Shown one piece after another: positions 15,423-21,710 of a DNA stretch of 21,710 nt. The notes beneath the pieces were generated by a model, which was not told where the DNA came from, did not search any database, and saw only the letters and a program-made list of their open reading frames with translations. The stretch is from positions 1-21,710 of IMG/VR virus record IMGVR_UViG_3300047443_000030. One strand, written 5' to 3'. Origin of the DNA: a virus. Made by a program: the position numbers and the translations under genes. Every line of letters begins with the position of its first letter. The first letter of the stretch is position 1.

Positions 15423-18368
15423 GTGACCGTTCCCACCGGATTCCCCGTCAACGACGGCCCCCTGATTCCTACCTGGCCGCGCATCCTCCTGCAGGTCGCA
15501 TGGAACGCAGGCGGCAACAGCACGGCGCCCAACCACTGGTACACCGTCTCCAAGCGCATGCGCGGCCAGTGGAAGGCCCAGTTGGCCGGGCGGCAGTACG
15601 AGATGGACACCGTCACCAGCGGCCAGATGACCTTCAAGCTCGACAACGTCGACGGCGTCTTCGACCCCGACAACACGGCCTCGTTCTTCTACCCCTACGT
15701 GCTGCCCTACCGGCGCGTGCGCCTGATCGCGCAGTCCAACCCCAGCCAGAACCTGCTGTACCTCTGGGTCGCCAGCGCCATCAGCACACTGTCCATGGCC
15801 GTCTCCACCGGCACCCTCACCGCGGCCACCGGCCTGGCCGCTTCCCCGTCGGGCCTGACCACCGCGCACGCCTGGGCTCTGCCCAACGGGACCGGAATGT
15901 TCCAGGGCCTCGGCCTGTCCGGGGCCGTCCAGCCGTGGACGAACGTCGACTGCGACGGCATCACCGTCACGCCGGGCGCCGCCTACGCGGCCGGCGTCGA
16001 TCTGCAGCTCGCGCCCGGCGGGATGACGTCGCTGTCCGCACAAGTGAAGATCCAGTGGTACGACCTGGTGGGCAACCAGCTGTCCGCCAGCGCCGGGACC
16101 CCGGTGTCGCTGACCACCACCTGGCAGCGCACCACCATCTCCGGCACCGCCCCGGCGGGCGCCGCCTTCGGCATCCCGCTCATCGTCACCCTCGCCGCGA
16201 CCACCGCGGCAACCACGATCCGCGCCACCGGCTGGCAGCTCGAGCAGAACTTCGCCGCCACCGCCTGGGCCCCGTCCGGCGACTGGTACGAACTGTGGCA
16301 AGGCTTCGTCGAGCGCTGGCCGCAGTCCTACGACAACAACGGCAAGTACGGAATGGTCGACGTCACTTGTGTCGACGCGCTCGCCCCGCTGTCGCAACTG
16401 ACCTACCAGGACGTGATGCCCGGCTGGGTGGCCCAGACCCAGTCGGCGAGCCTCCAGTGCGTATACGACCTCGCCACCCCCGGCACCAGCCCCGACGTGC
16501 CCGGCGGCTCCGCGTTCCTGCCGTATACAGGCGCCCAACTAGGCATCGGCGGCCTGGACATCGTCGGCGCGAACATCATCACGGGCACGTCCATCACGTC
16601 CACCACCGACCTCGGCGCCCTGTGGGGCGTGCCCGGACCGGTCACCACCCTCGCCAACAACCAGGCGTCAAGCCTGGGCAACTCCGCAGGGGCGACCTAT
16701 CTGGCGCCCTGGGACGGCGCAGACCGGCTCATGCTGCCCAACGGCGGCTGGACCCGCATCATTTGCTTCCGGACCGCCGTGACCCCGGGCACCGGCGGTC
16801 GTTTCGGCTCGGCCACCCTGTGGGCCGCCACCGGGCCCGGCTTCCTGGCCGGCAGTGGAAACCAGTCCGTGGCCAGCGTGGAGATCTACTCCTCCGGGCA
16901 GGTCACCATGAGGTTCCAGAACGCCGGGAACACGGCCGGAACCTACCTGCTCAACCCAATTCCCGTCACCGACGGGAACTGGCACTGCGTCGTGCTGTCG
17001 CTGTCGGCGGACGGGAAGACCGGGAAACTGGTCGTTGACGGCAGCCAGACCAGCTTCGTCGCATCGGCGAGCATGGCCTCGTCCACCTACACGGTCGACG
17101 CGATCGGCGCGACGCTCACCACCAACGGCGCCGGCGAGAACACCAGCCCGTTCAACGGGGACATCGCCTATTTCGGGCAGTGGAACACCCAGCTGGACTC
17201 CGCCACCGCCAGCGACCTGTCCCGCGGCTTCGCCCTCGGCTGGGCGGGCGACAGCATCGGCTCCCGCATCCAGCGCCTGCTCAACCTCGCCTCGTTCCAC
17301 CCCGGCAGCGGCTTCCCCTTTGGGCAAACCGGCAGCCAAGGGACCCTCGGCTCGATCTCCCTGAACGGGCGCTCCGCCCTGGACGCGATCCAGTCGGCCG
17401 CCGACACCGAGAACGGCCAGTTCGCCGTCGACAATTTCGGCATCCCTACCCTGTTCGGGCACCTGTGGCGCTGGATCCAGAACACGCCCATCGTCACCTT
17501 CGGCGAGAACGTCGCGGGCGGCGAGATCCCCGTCGCGGGCGACATCAAGTTCGAGCAGGACCCGGCGCACCTCTACAACGACATCCAGATCACGGTCGAG
17601 GGCGCCGCCGATGCCACCGACTTGACCCGGCTGCAGGAAGTCGAGAACACGGCCAGCCAGACCGCGTACTTCCCGCAGACCCTCGCCCGGACGATCAACC
17701 CGCAGACCGTGCAGACCGGCAAGAGCATGGCCAACTACCTGGTCTCTCTCTACAAGGACCCGCACACCCGGCTGCAGGGCCTGACCGTCGACCTCGCCCA
17801 CAGTCCCGCGCTGCAGCGCAAGGTGATGGGGCTGAGGTTCTCCGACCTGGTGCGCGTCATGAAACGCCCCGAGCTCGCACCCGCCAAGCAGCTGGACGGG
17901 TTCATCGAGCAAATCGAATGGTCCGGCGACGACACCGGGCAGGCCCTGCAGCTCAAGCTGCAGATCTCCCCGGCCTCGCAGTACCGCTACTGGATGATCT
18001 CCGCCGCCTGGGCCGCGCTGTCCACCTCACCGGCTGCCGGGGTCAGCGTCATCACGGTCGGCCCGGTCTCCGGCAATAACGCGATCGCCGCCCAGTACGT
18101 CATCCCCGCCGGTTTCACCATGGTCCTCGGCTACGGCACCGCCAACTCGGAGACGGTCACCGTGCAGTCCGTGCAGACCGTCACCGCCGGATACAGCACC
18201 GTGCAGCTCACCCTCACCGCCCCGACCACCAAGAGCCACACCACGGGCGACGTGATCTGTTCGCCGCTGCCCATCAACCCCACCCTGCCGCCCGGCGGCA
18301 GCTATCCCACCTGCTACGACGCCGCCGCCGTGTTCGGAGGCACCTCACCCCTGTTCGGATTCGGATGA
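15423..18368 (+). CDS. Large minor tail / baseplate hub protein with lectin-like insertions
   Basis: A 981-residue tail-tip protein, following the tape measure as hub proteins do. Residues about 1-105 (with GQMTFKLDNVDGVFDPDN and YPYVLPYRRVRLIA) and about 293-330 (WQGFVERWPQSYDNNGKYG) look like pieces of one hub-type domain. The part between, about 120-290, resembles a carbohydrate-binding jelly roll. Residues about 425-610 look like a concanavalin/LamG domain (GNWHCVVLSLSADGKTGKLV, then GDIAYFGQWNTQLD). The hub theme resumes at about 620-880 (AGDIKFEQDPAHLYNDIQIT; then LRFSDLVRV). A beta-rich C-terminal domain ends the protein. The start is GTG at 15423 after AGGGGG. Role in host-surface binding is inferred. 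Confidence 0.8.
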   Translation: MTVPTGFPVNDGPLIPTWPRILLQVAWNAGGNSTAPNHWYTVSKRMRGQWKAQLAGRQYEMDTVTSGQMTFKLDNVDGVFDPDNTASFFYPYVLPYRRVRLIAQSNPSQNLLYLWVASAISTLSMAVSTGTLTAATGLAASPSGLTTAHAWALPNGTGMFQGLGLSGAVQPWTNVDCDGITVTPGAAYAAGVDLQLAPGGMTSLSAQVKIQWYDLVGNQLSASAGTPVSLTTTWQRTTISGTAPAGAAFGIPLIVTLAATTAATTIRATGWQLEQNFAATAWAPSGDWYELWQGFVERWPQSYDNNGKYGMVDVTCVDALAPLSQLTYQDVMPGWVAQTQSASLQCVYDLATPGTSPDVPGGSAFLPYTGAQLGIGGLDIVGANIITGTSITSTTDLGALWGVPGPVTTLANNQASSLGNSAGATYLAPWDGADRLMLPNGGWTRIICFRTAVTPGTGGRFGSATLWAATGPGFLAGSGNQSVASVEIYSSGQVTMRFQNAGNTAGTYLLNPIPVTDGNWHCVVLSLSADGKTGKLVVDGSQTSFVASASMASSTYTVDAIGATLTTNGAGENTSPFNGDIAYFGQWNTQLDSATASDLSRGFALGWAGDSIGSRIQRLLNLASFHPGSGFPFGQTGSQGTLGSISLNGRSALDAIQSAADTENGQFAVDNFGIPTLFGHLWRWIQNTPIVTFGENVAGGEIPVAGDIKFEQDPAHLYNDIQITVEGAADATDLTRLQEVENTASQTAYFPQTLARTINPQTVQTGKSMANYLVSLYKDPHTRLQGLTVDLAHSPALQRKVMGLRFSDLVRVMKRPELAPAKQLDGFIEQIEWSGDDTGQALQLKLQISPASQYRYWMISAAWAALSTSPAAGVSVITVGPVSGNNAIAAQYVIPAGFTMVLGYGTANSETVTVQSVQTVTAGYSTVQLTLTAPTTKSHTTGDVICSPLPINPTLPPGGSYPTCYDAAAVFGGTSPLFGFG

Positions 18369-18381
18369 CCCCGGAGGCCTC

Positions 18382-18942
18382 GTGACCGTCCGCCCCGCCC
18401 TCACCCCAGCCACGGCCGGATTCCCCTCCTCGGATGCCTGGTGGCTCGCCCAGGTCTACAACCCGCTCAACTACCTGTACGGGCAGCTGCCCATCGAGGT
18501 CTACAAGGCCAACGACTGGCTGATCACCAACACCACGACGTTCGCCTCCGACCCCGACCTGCAGTGCACGCTGGCCGCGAACTCCACCTACCGCGTCGAG
18601 TTCTACGTCCATTACGCCGCGATCGACCTCGCGCGTCTCAAGACGCAGTGGCTGGTCCCCGCCTCGGCCACCGGCGGCCGCTCGGCCATCGGCCCGGACC
18701 AGGGCCAGATCCTCTCCGCCACGTCCGGCGGCCAGGGCCGATGGGGGTCCCACGCCTTCAACACGGCCTGCACCTACGGCACCCGTGACAGCGCCTCGAA
18801 CCAGTGCGCCCTGATCGAGGAAGGCATCGTCTCCACGGTCGGCGGCGGGACGCTCGCCATCCAGGCAGCCCAGGCCACCGCGAACGCCACCTCTTCGAAG
18901 ATCGCCGCGGGCTCATACATGCGCGTCAAGTTGATCTCTTAG
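18382..18942 (+). CDS. Minor tail protein with beta-sandwich C-terminal domain
   Basis: A 186-residue protein. The N-terminus (SSDAWWLAQVYNPLNYLYG) is followed by a short linker. From about 50 a beta-rich domain begins (DPDLQCTLAANSTYRVEFYV) and ends with NATSSKIAAGSYMRVKLIS. That pattern, a start with 'anttY.vef' and an end with 'G S Y . R . . . I', recurs in tail-tip proteins of Streptomyces phages. It probably forms part of the tail tip or fibre. GGAGG (18373-18377) precedes the GTG by four bases. The host-binding role is inferred from position. Confidence 0.65.
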   Translation: MTVRPALTPATAGFPSSDAWWLAQVYNPLNYLYGQLPIEVYKANDWLITNTTTFASDPDLQCTLAANSTYRVEFYVHYAAIDLARLKTQWLVPASATGGRSAIGPDQGQILSATSGGQGRWGSHAFNTACTYGTRDSASNQCALIEEGIVSTVGGGTLAIQAAQATANATSSKIAAGSYMRVKLIS

Positions 18943-18953
18943 GAGTCCCTCTC

Positions 18954-19175
18954 ATGGCAGATCTGCCGTACCCGTACTACCGGATCCAGGCCTACCGCGA
19001 CGACGAGTCCGGGTTCGGGCTCCTGATCCACATCGAGGACGGGGCGGGCGGCCCTCTCACCGGCCAGACCAGCCAGGGAGTCCTCGACGAGCTGTGCGCG
19101 CGACTGCGCGGTGACAGCGGCGACGTGACCGTCGCCCTCACTCGCTACGAGATCACCACCACCACCAACCTGTGA
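18954..19175 (+). CDS. Small protein between tail and lysis genes, unknown function
   Basis: A 73-residue protein (start ADLPYPYYRIQAYRDDESGF; end ALTRYEITTTTNL) of mixed strand and helix pattern. AGGAG (18941-18945) lies eight bases before the ATG. No hydrophobic segment or known motif is visible. It is followed directly by the endolysin gene. A small tail or regulatory protein is possible; I assign no function. Confidence 0.65.
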   Translation: MADLPYPYYRIQAYRDDESGFGLLIHIEDGAGGPLTGQTSQGVLDELCARLRGDSGDVTVALTRYEITTTTNL

Positions 19176-19186
19176 GAGGCACTCCG

Positions 19187-20044
19187 TTGACTACAACCCT
19201 CATCCCCGGCTGGCGCCGCCTCACCGACCACGTGATGGCCGTACCCGAGCGAATCTACGAGACGTGGAACTCCAGCGTCGGCTGGGACAACCACACCCAG
19301 TTCGGCAAGGAGTACAGCTGGGACGGCGTCGCGTGGTGCGCCATCTTCGACTGGGACATGTACCACGACGTCGGCCTCGACGCGATCGTCCCCAAGACTG
19401 CCTCCGTGTCCGGCATGGCCGCCTACGCCCGGCAGCACGGCCAGTGGTCGCAGTACCCAAGCGTGGGCGCGTGGGTCGACTTCGGCAACGGCGCCCACAC
19501 GGAGATCGTCGTCGGCTTCGACGACCAGCTCATCTACACCAAGGGCGGCAACAGCGTGAAGGCCGGGTCGACCGACGCCGGGCAGGGCAACGGCGTCTGG
19601 TCCCATGCCACGCCGCGCGGATCCGCGCGGGTCACTGGCTACTTCGCGCCGCACTACCCGGACGGGATCTGCCCGCCGACCGCTGACCCGAACGACCCGC
19701 GCGGCGGCAAGGCCGTCACCTCCTGGCGCTGGTCGCCGCCCGCCCCGGCGGTGAAGCCGTCCGTGTCCCTCGCGCACATCGTGTACGCCGCCCGGCACGA
19801 CCCGGCCGCCGCGCAGGGCCACACCAGCCACAAGGACGACGTCCTGCTCGTCGAGAAGGCACTCAAGGCCGAGGGGCTCCTGGCCGGCGGGTACGTCGAC
19901 GGCTCCTTCGGCTCGATGACGGTCGACGCATACAAGGCGTGGCAGAGGCGGCTCGGCTACACCGGCTCGGCCGCCGACGGCATCCCCGGCCAGACCTCAC
20001 TGTCGAAGCTCGGCGCGAAGCACGGCTTCCAGGTCGTCGCATGA
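19187..20044 (+). CDS. Endolysin: CHAP-like amidase/endopeptidase plus peptidoglycan-binding domain
   Basis: The cell-wall hydrolase that releases phage particles. From the TTG start it has 285 residues. The N-terminal domain (about 20-125) shows the CHAP/NlpC-P60-like arrangement: WCAIFDWDMY with probable catalytic Cys51, and NGAHTEIVVGF with probable His104. A linker rich in Pro and Trp follows. Residues about 217-285 form a PG_binding_1-type domain (DDVLLVEKALKAEGLLAGGY, DGSFGSMTVDAYKAWQRRLG and DGIPGQTSLSKLG). No signal peptide is seen, so it should depend on the holin. TTG 19187 is preferred because GAGAGG (19174-19179) sits seven bases upstream; GTG 19172 lacks a binding site. Confidence 0.9.
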   Translation: MTTTLIPGWRRLTDHVMAVPERIYETWNSSVGWDNHTQFGKEYSWDGVAWCAIFDWDMYHDVGLDAIVPKTASVSGMAAYARQHGQWSQYPSVGAWVDFGNGAHTEIVVGFDDQLIYTKGGNSVKAGSTDAGQGNGVWSHATPRGSARVTGYFAPHYPDGICPPTADPNDPRGGKAVTSWRWSPPAPAVKPSVSLAHIVYAARHDPAAAQGHTSHKDDVLLVEKALKAEGLLAGGYVDGSFGSMTVDAYKAWQRRLGYTGSAADGIPGQTSLSKLGAKHGFQVVA

Positions 20045-20628
20045 CCGCAATCGACTACGACCTGGAGTTCCTGGAGGACGGCCGCACCATCGATCTGATC
20101 TCCATCGGAATGGTGTGCGACGACGGCCGCGAGTACTACGCCGTCAACAGCGACGCCCCCTGGGAGCGCATCAGGAAGAACGACTGGCTGATCCGGAACG
20201 TACTTCCGTCGCTGCCCATCACGGGCCGCACCTCGCTGGACAGTTACCTCAAGATCCAGGCGAACAGCTACCCCAAGACCACGCTCGAAATGGTCGGCGC
20301 GGACACCAAGGACACGCTGGTCAAGCCGCACTGGGTGATTGCCAACGAGGTCCGCGACTTCATCCAGGCGGCTGGACCCGACGTCGAACTGTGGGCGAAC
20401 TACGGGGCCTATGACCATGTCGCGCTCGCTCAACTCTGGGGCCGAATGATCGACCTCCCCGAGGGCGTGCCGATGTTCACGCACGACATCCAGCAGGAAC
20501 GATCCCGTCTCGGCCTCGCCTGGGACGACCTTCCCCAGCAGGAAAGCGGCGAGCACAACGCGCTCGCGGACGCCCGCCACAACCAGACCGTCCGGCGCTG
20601 GCTCGCCAGCCACTCGAAGGAGTCCTGA
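20041..20628 (+). CDS. Rv2179c-like DEDDh 3'-5' exoribonuclease
   Basis: The 195-residue protein closely follows the pattern of the mycobacterial Rv2179c exoribonuclease family: YDLEFLEDGRTIDLISIG, DDGREYYAV, and ELWANYGAYDHVALAQLWG. The complete DEDDh active site is visible: D7 and E9 (DLE), D125 (AYDH), H172 and D177 (HNALAD). Such enzymes trim RNA 3' ends with metal ions. Compared with what I recall of Rv2179c, the middle (about 60-100) appears extended. It starts by ATGA overlap with the endolysin gene, and the holin ATG follows its stop by two bases, so it is co-translated with the lysis genes. Its purpose there is unknown. The family call is strong. Confidence 0.88.
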   Translation: MTAIDYDLEFLEDGRTIDLISIGMVCDDGREYYAVNSDAPWERIRKNDWLIRNVLPSLPITGRTSLDSYLKIQANSYPKTTLEMVGADTKDTLVKPHWVIANEVRDFIQAAGPDVELWANYGAYDHVALAQLWGRMIDLPEGVPMFTHDIQQERSRLGLAWDDLPQQESGEHNALADARHNQTVRRWLASHSKES

Positions 20629-20630
20629 CC

Positions 20631-20900
20631 ATGCCCGAGTTCACCCTGCCCGGCGACGCCGAGACCGTCATCAAGACGGCGAAGACCTACGGTCGCGACC
20701 TCGCCGAGCGCACCCTGTCCACGGCCGTCGTCGCTGCGGGCGGCGTGGCCGTGGCAGCTGGCCCCGCCGACATGTTCCACGCCTCCTTCTGGCAGACCAT
20801 GGGCGCGGCCGGCATCGCCGCGGCGGGCACCCTGCTGAAGGGCATGGCCGCCAGAGCCTTCGGCACGAAGAACAGCGCCTCCCTGGTCAAGGGCGTCTGA
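20631..20900 (+). CDS. Holin, r1t-type
   Basis: Forms lesions in the cytoplasmic membrane so that endolysin can reach the wall. It has 89 residues. The start (VIKTAKTYGRDLAERTLSTA) fits the r1t holin family, followed by two hydrophobic segments, about 29-48 (AVVAAGGVAVAAGPADMF) and 52-72 (FWQTMGAAGIAAAGTLLKG), with a short loop. The end, FGTKNSASLVKGV, matches the common 'DSASLV' tail of this family. AAGGAG lies upstream of the ATG, overlapping the end of the exoribonuclease gene. Confidence 0.87.
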   Translation: MPEFTLPGDAETVIKTAKTYGRDLAERTLSTAVVAAGGVAVAAGPADMFHASFWQTMGAAGIAAAGTLLKGMAARAFGTKNSASLVKGV

Positions 20901-20930
20901 CCTGCCCCGTGCGAGCGTCTTGGAGGTGGC

Positions 20931-21197
20931 ATGGACGCCGCCCTCGTCACAGCTATCGGCGTGATCGGCAGCGCCGCGGTGGCCGGGGCGGCAGCCATGT
21001 ACGGCTCGAAGGTCGCCGGACGAGCCCAGCGGGAGGGCAACGCAGTGAACGGCTTCAACAGCCTGACGGACCAGCTGCAGGAAGAGCGCAAGGAGCTGCG
21101 CACCGAGGTGGCCACGCTCAAGGCCGAACTGGCGGCCGAGCGGGCAGAGTCGGCGCGGCTCCGGCTGCAGATCCAGCAGCTGGGGGGTGCGATATGA
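20931..21197 (+). CDS. Membrane-anchored coiled-coil protein of the lysis cassette
   Basis: An 88-residue protein with one N-terminal hydrophobic segment (ALVTAIGVIGSAAVAGAAAM, about 3-25), then a basic patch and a long charged helix (about 45-84, for example EERKELRTEVATLKAELAAE) with heptad-like spacing, so probably a coiled coil. GGAGG lies four bases before the ATG. Its stop overlaps the next gene as ATGA. Such single-span coiled-coil proteins are often next to actinophage holins and may be holin partners or antiholins. That role is inference. Confidence 0.75.
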   Translation: MDAALVTAIGVIGSAAVAGAAAMYGSKVAGRAQREGNAVNGFNSLTDQLQEERKELRTEVATLKAELAAERAESARLRLQIQQLGGAI

Positions 21198-21710
21198 CGC
21201 GCGCCGAGCGGGTCCTTGCCCACCGCTGGAAGCCGATCGCGCTCTTGGCGTTCCTGCTGTTCCTCACCGGCGCCGTGCTCCTGGTGTACGTGCGCGTCCA
21301 GTCCGAGGCCACGCGCGCCGACCAGCTCGCCGACGAGGCCGACCTCCGGGGCAGCGCCGTGTCCACCCTCGCCGGGGACGTCCGGGCGCTGCGGGCGCAG
21401 GTGAAAGCCCGGGGCGGCACCCCGGTTGCCCCGGACCCCACCAAGGCCGTCAAGGACTTGCCGGACCGCGCCGAGGTTCCAGTGCCCATCCCCGGGCCGC
21501 CCGGACCGAAGGGCGACAAGGGCGACACCGGGAAGGCGGCGCCAACCGTGACGCCGTCGCCGGGGGCATCCGGAGCGGCCGGCGCCTCGGGAGCCGACGG
21601 GGCGACCGGGCCTCAAGGCCCACAGGGCGAGCCCGGCGCGGTTGGACCGCAGGGCCCCGCCGGGCCACAGGGCGACCCAGGGCCCGCCGGCGCGGACGGC
21701 AAGGACGGCC
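21194..21710 (+). CDS. Membrane-anchored collagen-like protein (3' partial)
   Basis: The frame is open to the right edge (172 full codons seen). After a short basic N-terminus comes one hydrophobic span, ALLAFLLFLTGAVLLVYVRV (about 16-35). A charged helical stalk follows (about 36-75, DQLADEADLRGSAVSTLAGD). Then a Pro-rich linker leads to collagen-type G-X-Y triplets: GPPGPKGDKGDTG, a Ser/Thr/Pro break, and a longer run including GPQGPQGEPGAVGPQGPAGP, continuing past the window. This predicts a trimeric rod fixed in the membrane, presumably facing outward. ATG 21194 overlaps the previous stop (ATGA). Whatever domain follows the collagen part is out of view. A tail-fibre role seems less likely because of the membrane anchor. 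Confidence 0.85.
   Translation, partial: MTRAERVLAHRWKPIALLAFLLFLTGAVLLVYVRVQSEATRADQLADEADLRGSAVSTLAGDVRALRAQVKARGGTPVAPDPTKAVKDLPDRAEVPVPIPGPPGPKGDKGDTGKAAPTVTPSPGASGAAGASGADGATGPQGPQGEPGAVGPQGPAGPQGDPGPAGADGKDG

Follow-up and report, generated by a model that had tools for sequence, protein, structure and literature searches.

An optional RNase AS-like exoribonuclease gene at the endolysin-holin junction of Streptomyces-type phages

Two described enzyme groups are relevant for the locus analyzed here. One is RNase AS (Rv2179c) of Mycobacterium tuberculosis, for which a resemblance to RNase T has been described (PMC8628891). The other is Crn4, which cuts cA3 and cA4 (cA6 in the case of Crn4a) to linear products with 2',3'-cyclic phosphates; phage copies have been proposed to be anti-CRISPRs, and Crn4 was reported in 11 of 28,137 phage genomes (PMC12830947). 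The protein studied here is a new member of the RNase AS family, which is already known. Its placement in a slot between lysin and holin genes and its association with Crn4b were not found in the openly licensed literature.

The exoribonuclease and its surroundings in the window

The window, i.e. the whole stretch of DNA that was analyzed, is an IMG/VR virus record and a linear fragment of 21,710 bases. Its plus strand carries, in this order, an FtsK-like gene, an HNH endonuclease gene (1173-2009, upstream of the terminase gene; phrog_144, 6e-19), the genes for terminase, portal, head protease, and major head protein, followed by head-tail and tail genes, the tape measure gene, and the lysis region. 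The relatives of the phage point to a Streptomyces-like host. The features of the lysis region are:

19187-20044, plus strand: endolysin, 285 aa, with a C-terminal peptidoglycan-binding domain (phrog_9589, 2e-51; PG_binding_1, 8.5e-6)
20041-20044, plus strand: ATGA, the exoribonuclease start over the endolysin stop (read from the sequence; the 4-bp overlap is also present in relatives)
20041-20628, plus strand: Rv2179c/RNase AS-like DEDDh 3'-5' exoribonuclease, 195 aa (PF16473, RNase AS in the PDB, Foldseek, conserved catalytic residues)
20631-20900, plus strand: holin, 89 aa (phrog_443, 1.9e-9; sequence)
20931-21197, plus strand: small hydrophobic/coiled-coil protein, often found after the holin (phrog_2658 'hol-like chemotaxis', 2.2e-15; cluster c6 in relatives)

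The exoribonuclease ORF extends from the ATG at 20041 to the TGA at 20626-20628. The holin start lies 2 bp past this stop, and the SD-like aaggag of the holin gene is located in the 3' end of the exoribonuclease gene. The position between endolysin and holin and the ATGA overlap, both claimed in a first-pass annotation, were thereby verified (ATGA at 20041-20044, holin at 20631). No promoter-like or terminator-like sites were found in 18300-21300, and a search for RNA elements near the exoribonuclease gene yielded none. Late production of the exonuclease would result from read-through of the operon and from coupling of its translation to the lysin stop codon within the ATGA. The window contains no tRNA gene, and a Crn4 gene and a HAD gene (see below) are both absent from it. 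Its last ORF (21194-21710) encodes a membrane segment and then collagen-like Gly-X-Y repeats that run off the fragment end.

Residues 6-184 of the exoribonuclease matched PF16473 with an E-value of 4.3e-13 and 49.8 bits, above the gathering cut-off of 27, and the full DEDDh set is present. Further matches were obtained with PHROG 2259 (4.7e-53), with the RNase AS structures 4oke and 4hec (about 1e-29), and with the NCBIfam model RNase_AS (NF033638; 1.9e-43), the latter with 148.4 bits and below its equivalog cut-off of 200. By sequence comparison, the protein is classified as a member of PF16473 and, by the NCBI cut-off, not as an RNase AS equivalog. An AlphaFold model was built from 21 window and locus sequences (pLDDT 93.4). 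Foldseek assigned it to the RNase AS fold, with TMt values of about 0.9 to 4hec, 4hvj (with AMP), 4oke, and 6s0m; RNase T and oligoribonuclease ranked next. Among 100 relatives, D7, E9, H172, and D177 were invariant and D125 was present in 99. The proposal of the first-pass annotation that the gene encodes an intact DEDDh exoribonuclease of the Rv2179c family was therefore corroborated by the matches to PF16473 and RNase AS and by the conservation of all five residues. The median pairwise dN/dS between lysin-linked copies was 0.22, showing that the gene is under purifying selection.

Many cultured homologs are labeled 'DnaQ-like' or 'Rnase H' in GenBank and some reside beside RecE/RecT/RusA genes, as would befit a DNA exonuclease or a DnaQ-like proofreading subunit. 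However, RNase AS is the closest match in both sequence and fold, followed by RNase T and oligoribonuclease, and the window contains no polymerase gene, so that this reading is highly improbable. A DNA proofreading role was rejected on fold and sequence. The labels 'RNase H' and 'DnaQ-like DNA polymerase III subunit' on many cultured actinophage homologs are thereby corrected, as sequence and fold point to RNase AS.

The gene itself appears to be composite. Its variable middle segment (window 20218-20334) resembles mycobacteriophage/phiM2-type copies and its C-terminal half is almost that of the lysin-linked copies, and these differing affinities suggest mosaicism within the gene.

Slot occupancy and optional presence

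A search of IMG/VR with the window exonuclease retrieved 80 relatives, 76 of which remained after removal of identical copies; these are close relatives, mostly with more than 55% identity. Lysin or holin genes were neighbors in 54 of these 76 distinct viral contigs (71%), with 53 copies residing by a lysin gene and one by a holin gene. Of the others, seven were located among head genes, in a region of the ZL12 type, and 15 elsewhere. The PF16473 search and the scoring of neighbors that had been proposed as a check of the first-pass annotation thus both gave positive results, as the family was matched and linkage to lysis genes was not random.

Across all collections, 62 lysin-linked exonuclease loci were available. 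An overlap of exactly 4 bp with the lysin gene was present in 39 and a 4-bp overlap with the next gene in 40 of them, with the reservation that genes in the relatives were called by a simple script, so that errors in small genes and in start positions are possible. Lysin and holin genes in relatives were labeled by BLAST to clusters identified with PHROG and Pfam. The lysins by the exonuclease belonged to six N-terminal groups without detectable similarity to one another (Amidase_2, GH25, CHAP, and others) and to at least two C-terminal types, and the holins to three families. Along the exonuclease tree, switches between lysin N-terminal groups numbered 27 and those between holin families 14, and 27 lysin/holin combinations were observed. 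The slot is thus constant while its surroundings are shuffled: the exonuclease gene holds the same place while the flanking lysin and holin genes are exchanged.

The reverse sampling, with two lysins of these phages as queries, yielded 93 usable loci. The exonuclease gene was present in only five of them and absent from 88, and thus it does not regularly accompany the lysin/holin pair as a core gene of the lysis cassette would. In its absence, the lysin gene was followed directly by a small, holin-like gene, typically after a gap of 8-30 bp. Filled and empty states of one cassette type were seen in the loci L190 (with exonuclease) and L191 (without), and presence or absence at a fixed site, the pattern of an accessory (moron) gene, was evident from L190 and L181 versus L191 and L184-L186.

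Six loci contained the exonuclease gene in divergent orientation to the lysin gene (L007, L039, L045, L048, L050, and L094), and in three of these (L039, L045, and L048) a gene for an XRE-type regulator follows. The gap between the two divergent genes is about 190-230 bp in all six. On the family tree, lysis-linked copies are interspersed with copies from the head region and from other contexts, with at least 21 changes of this label; therefore, the exonuclease gene moves. The further members retrieved by a profile search are more distant, and most of them do not reside in lysis cassettes. Other neighbors were capsid genes, glycosyltransferase cassettes, RecE/RecT/RusA genes, tRNA arrays, and RtcB. 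The homologs of cultured phages that were examined reside by RecE/RecT/RusA genes, between tRNAs, in the head region (ZL12), and in other places. The nearest cultured case to placement in the lysis slot is Zuko, in which the exonuclease gene lies two genes before the endolysin gene. One locus (L009) harbors two tandem copies in its head region, and in another one (L081) the match covers residues 1-134 only, without a full gene call.

These results bear on a control of lysis timing, in which the exonuclease would degrade lysin/holin or other late mRNA and thereby set the time of holin accumulation. In many relatives, the gene is tightly coupled to both of its neighbors, the lysin and the holin gene, and this arrangement would agree with such a control. 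However, the gene is missing from most lysin loci (88/93), diverges from the lysin gene in six loci, three of them with an XRE-type regulator gene after it, goes together with unrelated lysins and holins, and occurs in capsid, tRNA, recombination, and glycosyltransferase regions as well. Timing control is therefore very unlikely and was rejected as the main reading, and the role in lysis or its timing that the first-pass annotation had offered was not supported by the comparison. The exonuclease is an optional passenger and not a core lysis gene; optional presence and the many non-lysis contexts together argue against a core lysis role.

A mobile and optional gene might also be a neutral hitch-hiker, kept at the junction solely because shared lysin and holin flanks recombine and thereby move it, and some lysins do share C-terminal domains that could serve as such flanks. 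The catalytic residues retained in 99 of 100 relatives, the dN/dS of about 0.22, and the precise start/stop overlaps with unrelated flanks speak against neutrality, which we regard as quite improbable.

Several contexts involve stable RNA. Homologs reside inside the tRNA arrays of Faust and Birchlyn, the copy in L080 lies beside five tRNAs, and in L316 an RtcB RNA ligase gene adjoins the exonuclease gene (L316:4680-5873). Such placement inside or beside phage tRNA arrays was seen in L109, L110, and L080, and one of the homologs adjoins a tmRNA. The RtcB and tRNA-array neighbors point to work on RNA 3' ends. On the host side, the window exonuclease matched only 20 of 393 Streptomyces genomes, and the RNase AS cut-off of NF033638 was exceeded in 0 of 51 Streptomyces genomes, whereas it was exceeded in the Corynebacterium control. 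These two queries replaced a PF16473 scan of Streptomyces, which was swamped by weak matches that we take to be other DEDD exonucleases. Because the Streptomyces genomes lack an RNase AS ortholog, the phage supplies an enzyme that is absent from the host genus. The enzyme could have a housekeeping function and supply the phage with an activity that the host genus lacks: it could trim the 3' ends of tRNAs or stable RNAs in the manner of RNase T, repair RNA, or recover nucleotides. The RNA-related neighbors, the RNase T-like character of Rv2179c, and the result for Streptomyces are in favor of this function. However, the window contains no tRNA gene, a late, lysis-adjacent position is poorly suited for nucleotide recovery, and this function would not account for the two slots that the exonuclease shares with ring nucleases. 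Housekeeping is a possible but rather unlikely explanation.

Crn4b and HAD genes at the same junction

A second optional gene of the slot encodes a protein of 113-117 aa and follows the lysin or the exonuclease gene, again with a 4-bp overlap. It matched PADLOC Unk_01 (2e-18) and the Crn4b structure 9r7b (1.4e-12), and the catalytic motifs NLTPH and GCR (catalytic T, H, and R) were found in 11 of 12 aligned Crn4 copies, the one in L313 having NLTLY. Crn4b-like genes reside between lysin and holin in L027 (8546-8896), L070 (8573-8923), L202 (4900-5238), and about 45 further IMG/VR loci. In total, 97 IMG/VR stretches were matched by the Crn4 search. Lysin or holin neighbors were present in about 50 of 70 distinct called Crn4 loci, a count made up of 46 distinct lysis loci and five near-copies.

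The exonuclease gene was found within 3.5 kb of Crn4 in 14 of the 70 distinct loci. Inside the slot, co-occurrence was modest, with the exonuclease in 8 of 30 Crn4 loci versus 5 of 93 lysin loci (p=0.003 in a Fisher test, near-duplicates still included). Outside lysis cassettes, adjacent exonuclease-Crn4 pairs occur in L341/L408, L410, and L413; as L341/L408 and L313/L417 were part of the query alignment, the unbiased pairings outside the slot are only L406, L410, and L413. Both genes also share a glycosyltransferase-methyltransferase-epimerase cassette, which carries Crn4 in L354 and L393 and the exonuclease in L018, L030, L065, L066, and L271. A third slot gene encodes a HAD protein that weakly matched the RNA-repair phosphatases of HAD_SAK_2 (0.002, below the cut-off). 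It adjoins Crn4 in L356 (4591-5001) and L387 (4612-5001) and the exonuclease in L321 (2964-3326), and it may represent a phosphatase partner.

With moderate confidence, we favor the explanation that the exonuclease is an accessory enzyme for counter-defense or RNA repair in a cargo slot of the late operon, and that it is unlikely to drive lysis. The moron-type gene would have been inserted precisely at the endolysin-holin junction in the late operon of a Streptomyces-type temperate phage, a junction that the relatives show to be an optional cargo slot. From RNase AS, a preference for single-stranded, A-rich 3' ends is expected by analogy, and the most likely job in the infected cell would be the removal of oligoadenylates or of damaged or signaling RNA 3' ends. 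Because the slot is optional and is also used by a family of enzymes that destroy bacterial alarm signals, a counter-defense accessory is likelier than a part of the lysis machinery; the association with Crn4b is what suggests the counter-defense role. Removal of RNA or cyclic-nucleotide-derived signals, another option of the first-pass annotation, thereby gained circumstantial support. Most slot copies of the exonuclease, including that of the window, are without a Crn4 or HAD gene, which counts against the counter-defense reading. The same holds for the modest co-occurrence with Crn4 inside the slot, the few unbiased pairings outside it, the cyclic phosphate on Crn4 products, and the negative searches with PADLOC and with Cas10 models described below.

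A more specific version would be a joint disposal of cyclic oligonucleotides by genes assembled in differing combinations in the slot of Streptomyces temperate phages. Crn4b would open the ring and yield a linear oligoadenylate ending in a 2',3'-cyclic phosphate, the HAD phosphatase would clear this end, and the RNase AS-like exoribonuclease would digest the adenylates to AMP. Expression tied to lysin translation would ensure that late-acting abortive defenses based on cyclic nucleotides (CBASS) cannot pre-empt lysis. The 2',3'-cyclic phosphate should resist direct attack by a DEDDh exonuclease, and because Crn4 leaves this blocked 3' end, a simple relay from Crn4 to the exonuclease is not straightforward. 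The HAD gene, of which there are few instances, could clear the block. We judge a counter-defense slot with this complete pathway to be distinctly unlikely.

If cyclic-nucleotide defense is the target, CBASS is the better candidate: SMODS synthases of the CBASS type were found in 22 of 150 Streptomyces genomes, and no type III Cas10 (Csm1/Cmr2; TIGR02577/TIGR02578) was found in the same number of genomes with models that may miss the Cas10 of type III-D. The window exonuclease matched no PADLOC model, a collection that covers defense more than anti-defense.

Significance and comparison with known systems

If the counter-defense reading is true, counter-defense genes of Streptomyces phages could be sought in the cargo slot of the lysis cassette, and the poorly understood RNase AS family would gain a testable role in phage-host conflict. 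The 97 IMG/VR stretches also widen the phage range of Crn4 compared to the 11 of 28,137 phage genomes reported previously (PMC12830947).

Among known systems, Cap18, a CBASS-associated 3'-5' exonuclease (PDB 7t2s), shares the broad DEDD fold (Foldseek rank 44, E=6e-4). However, its identity to the window exonuclease is 11%, and it is encoded in a host defense operon and not in a phage lysis slot. The cultured actinophage homologs (phrog_2259, e.g. Sbash gp62, Fruitloop gp65, and ZL12 pZL12.59c) belong to the same family with 55-62% identity, but in the records examined they reside in recombination, tRNA, head, and other regions and not between lysin and holin. RNase AS/Rv2179c (PF16473; 4oke, 4hec, 4hvj, 6s0m) shares the fold and the DEDDh residues, with 37% identity in the structural alignment at a TMt of about 0.9. 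In contrast to it, the window exonuclease is a phage-borne accessory that stays, with 148 bits, below the equivalog cut-off of 200, and it has a variable extra loop (residues 60-98). Crn4b (PDB 9r7b; PMC12830947), which is absent from the window, differs in fold and chemistry, as it opens cyclic oligoadenylates and does not trim 3' ends, yet it is the slot-mate of the exonuclease at the same lysin-holin junction and with the same 4-bp overlap.
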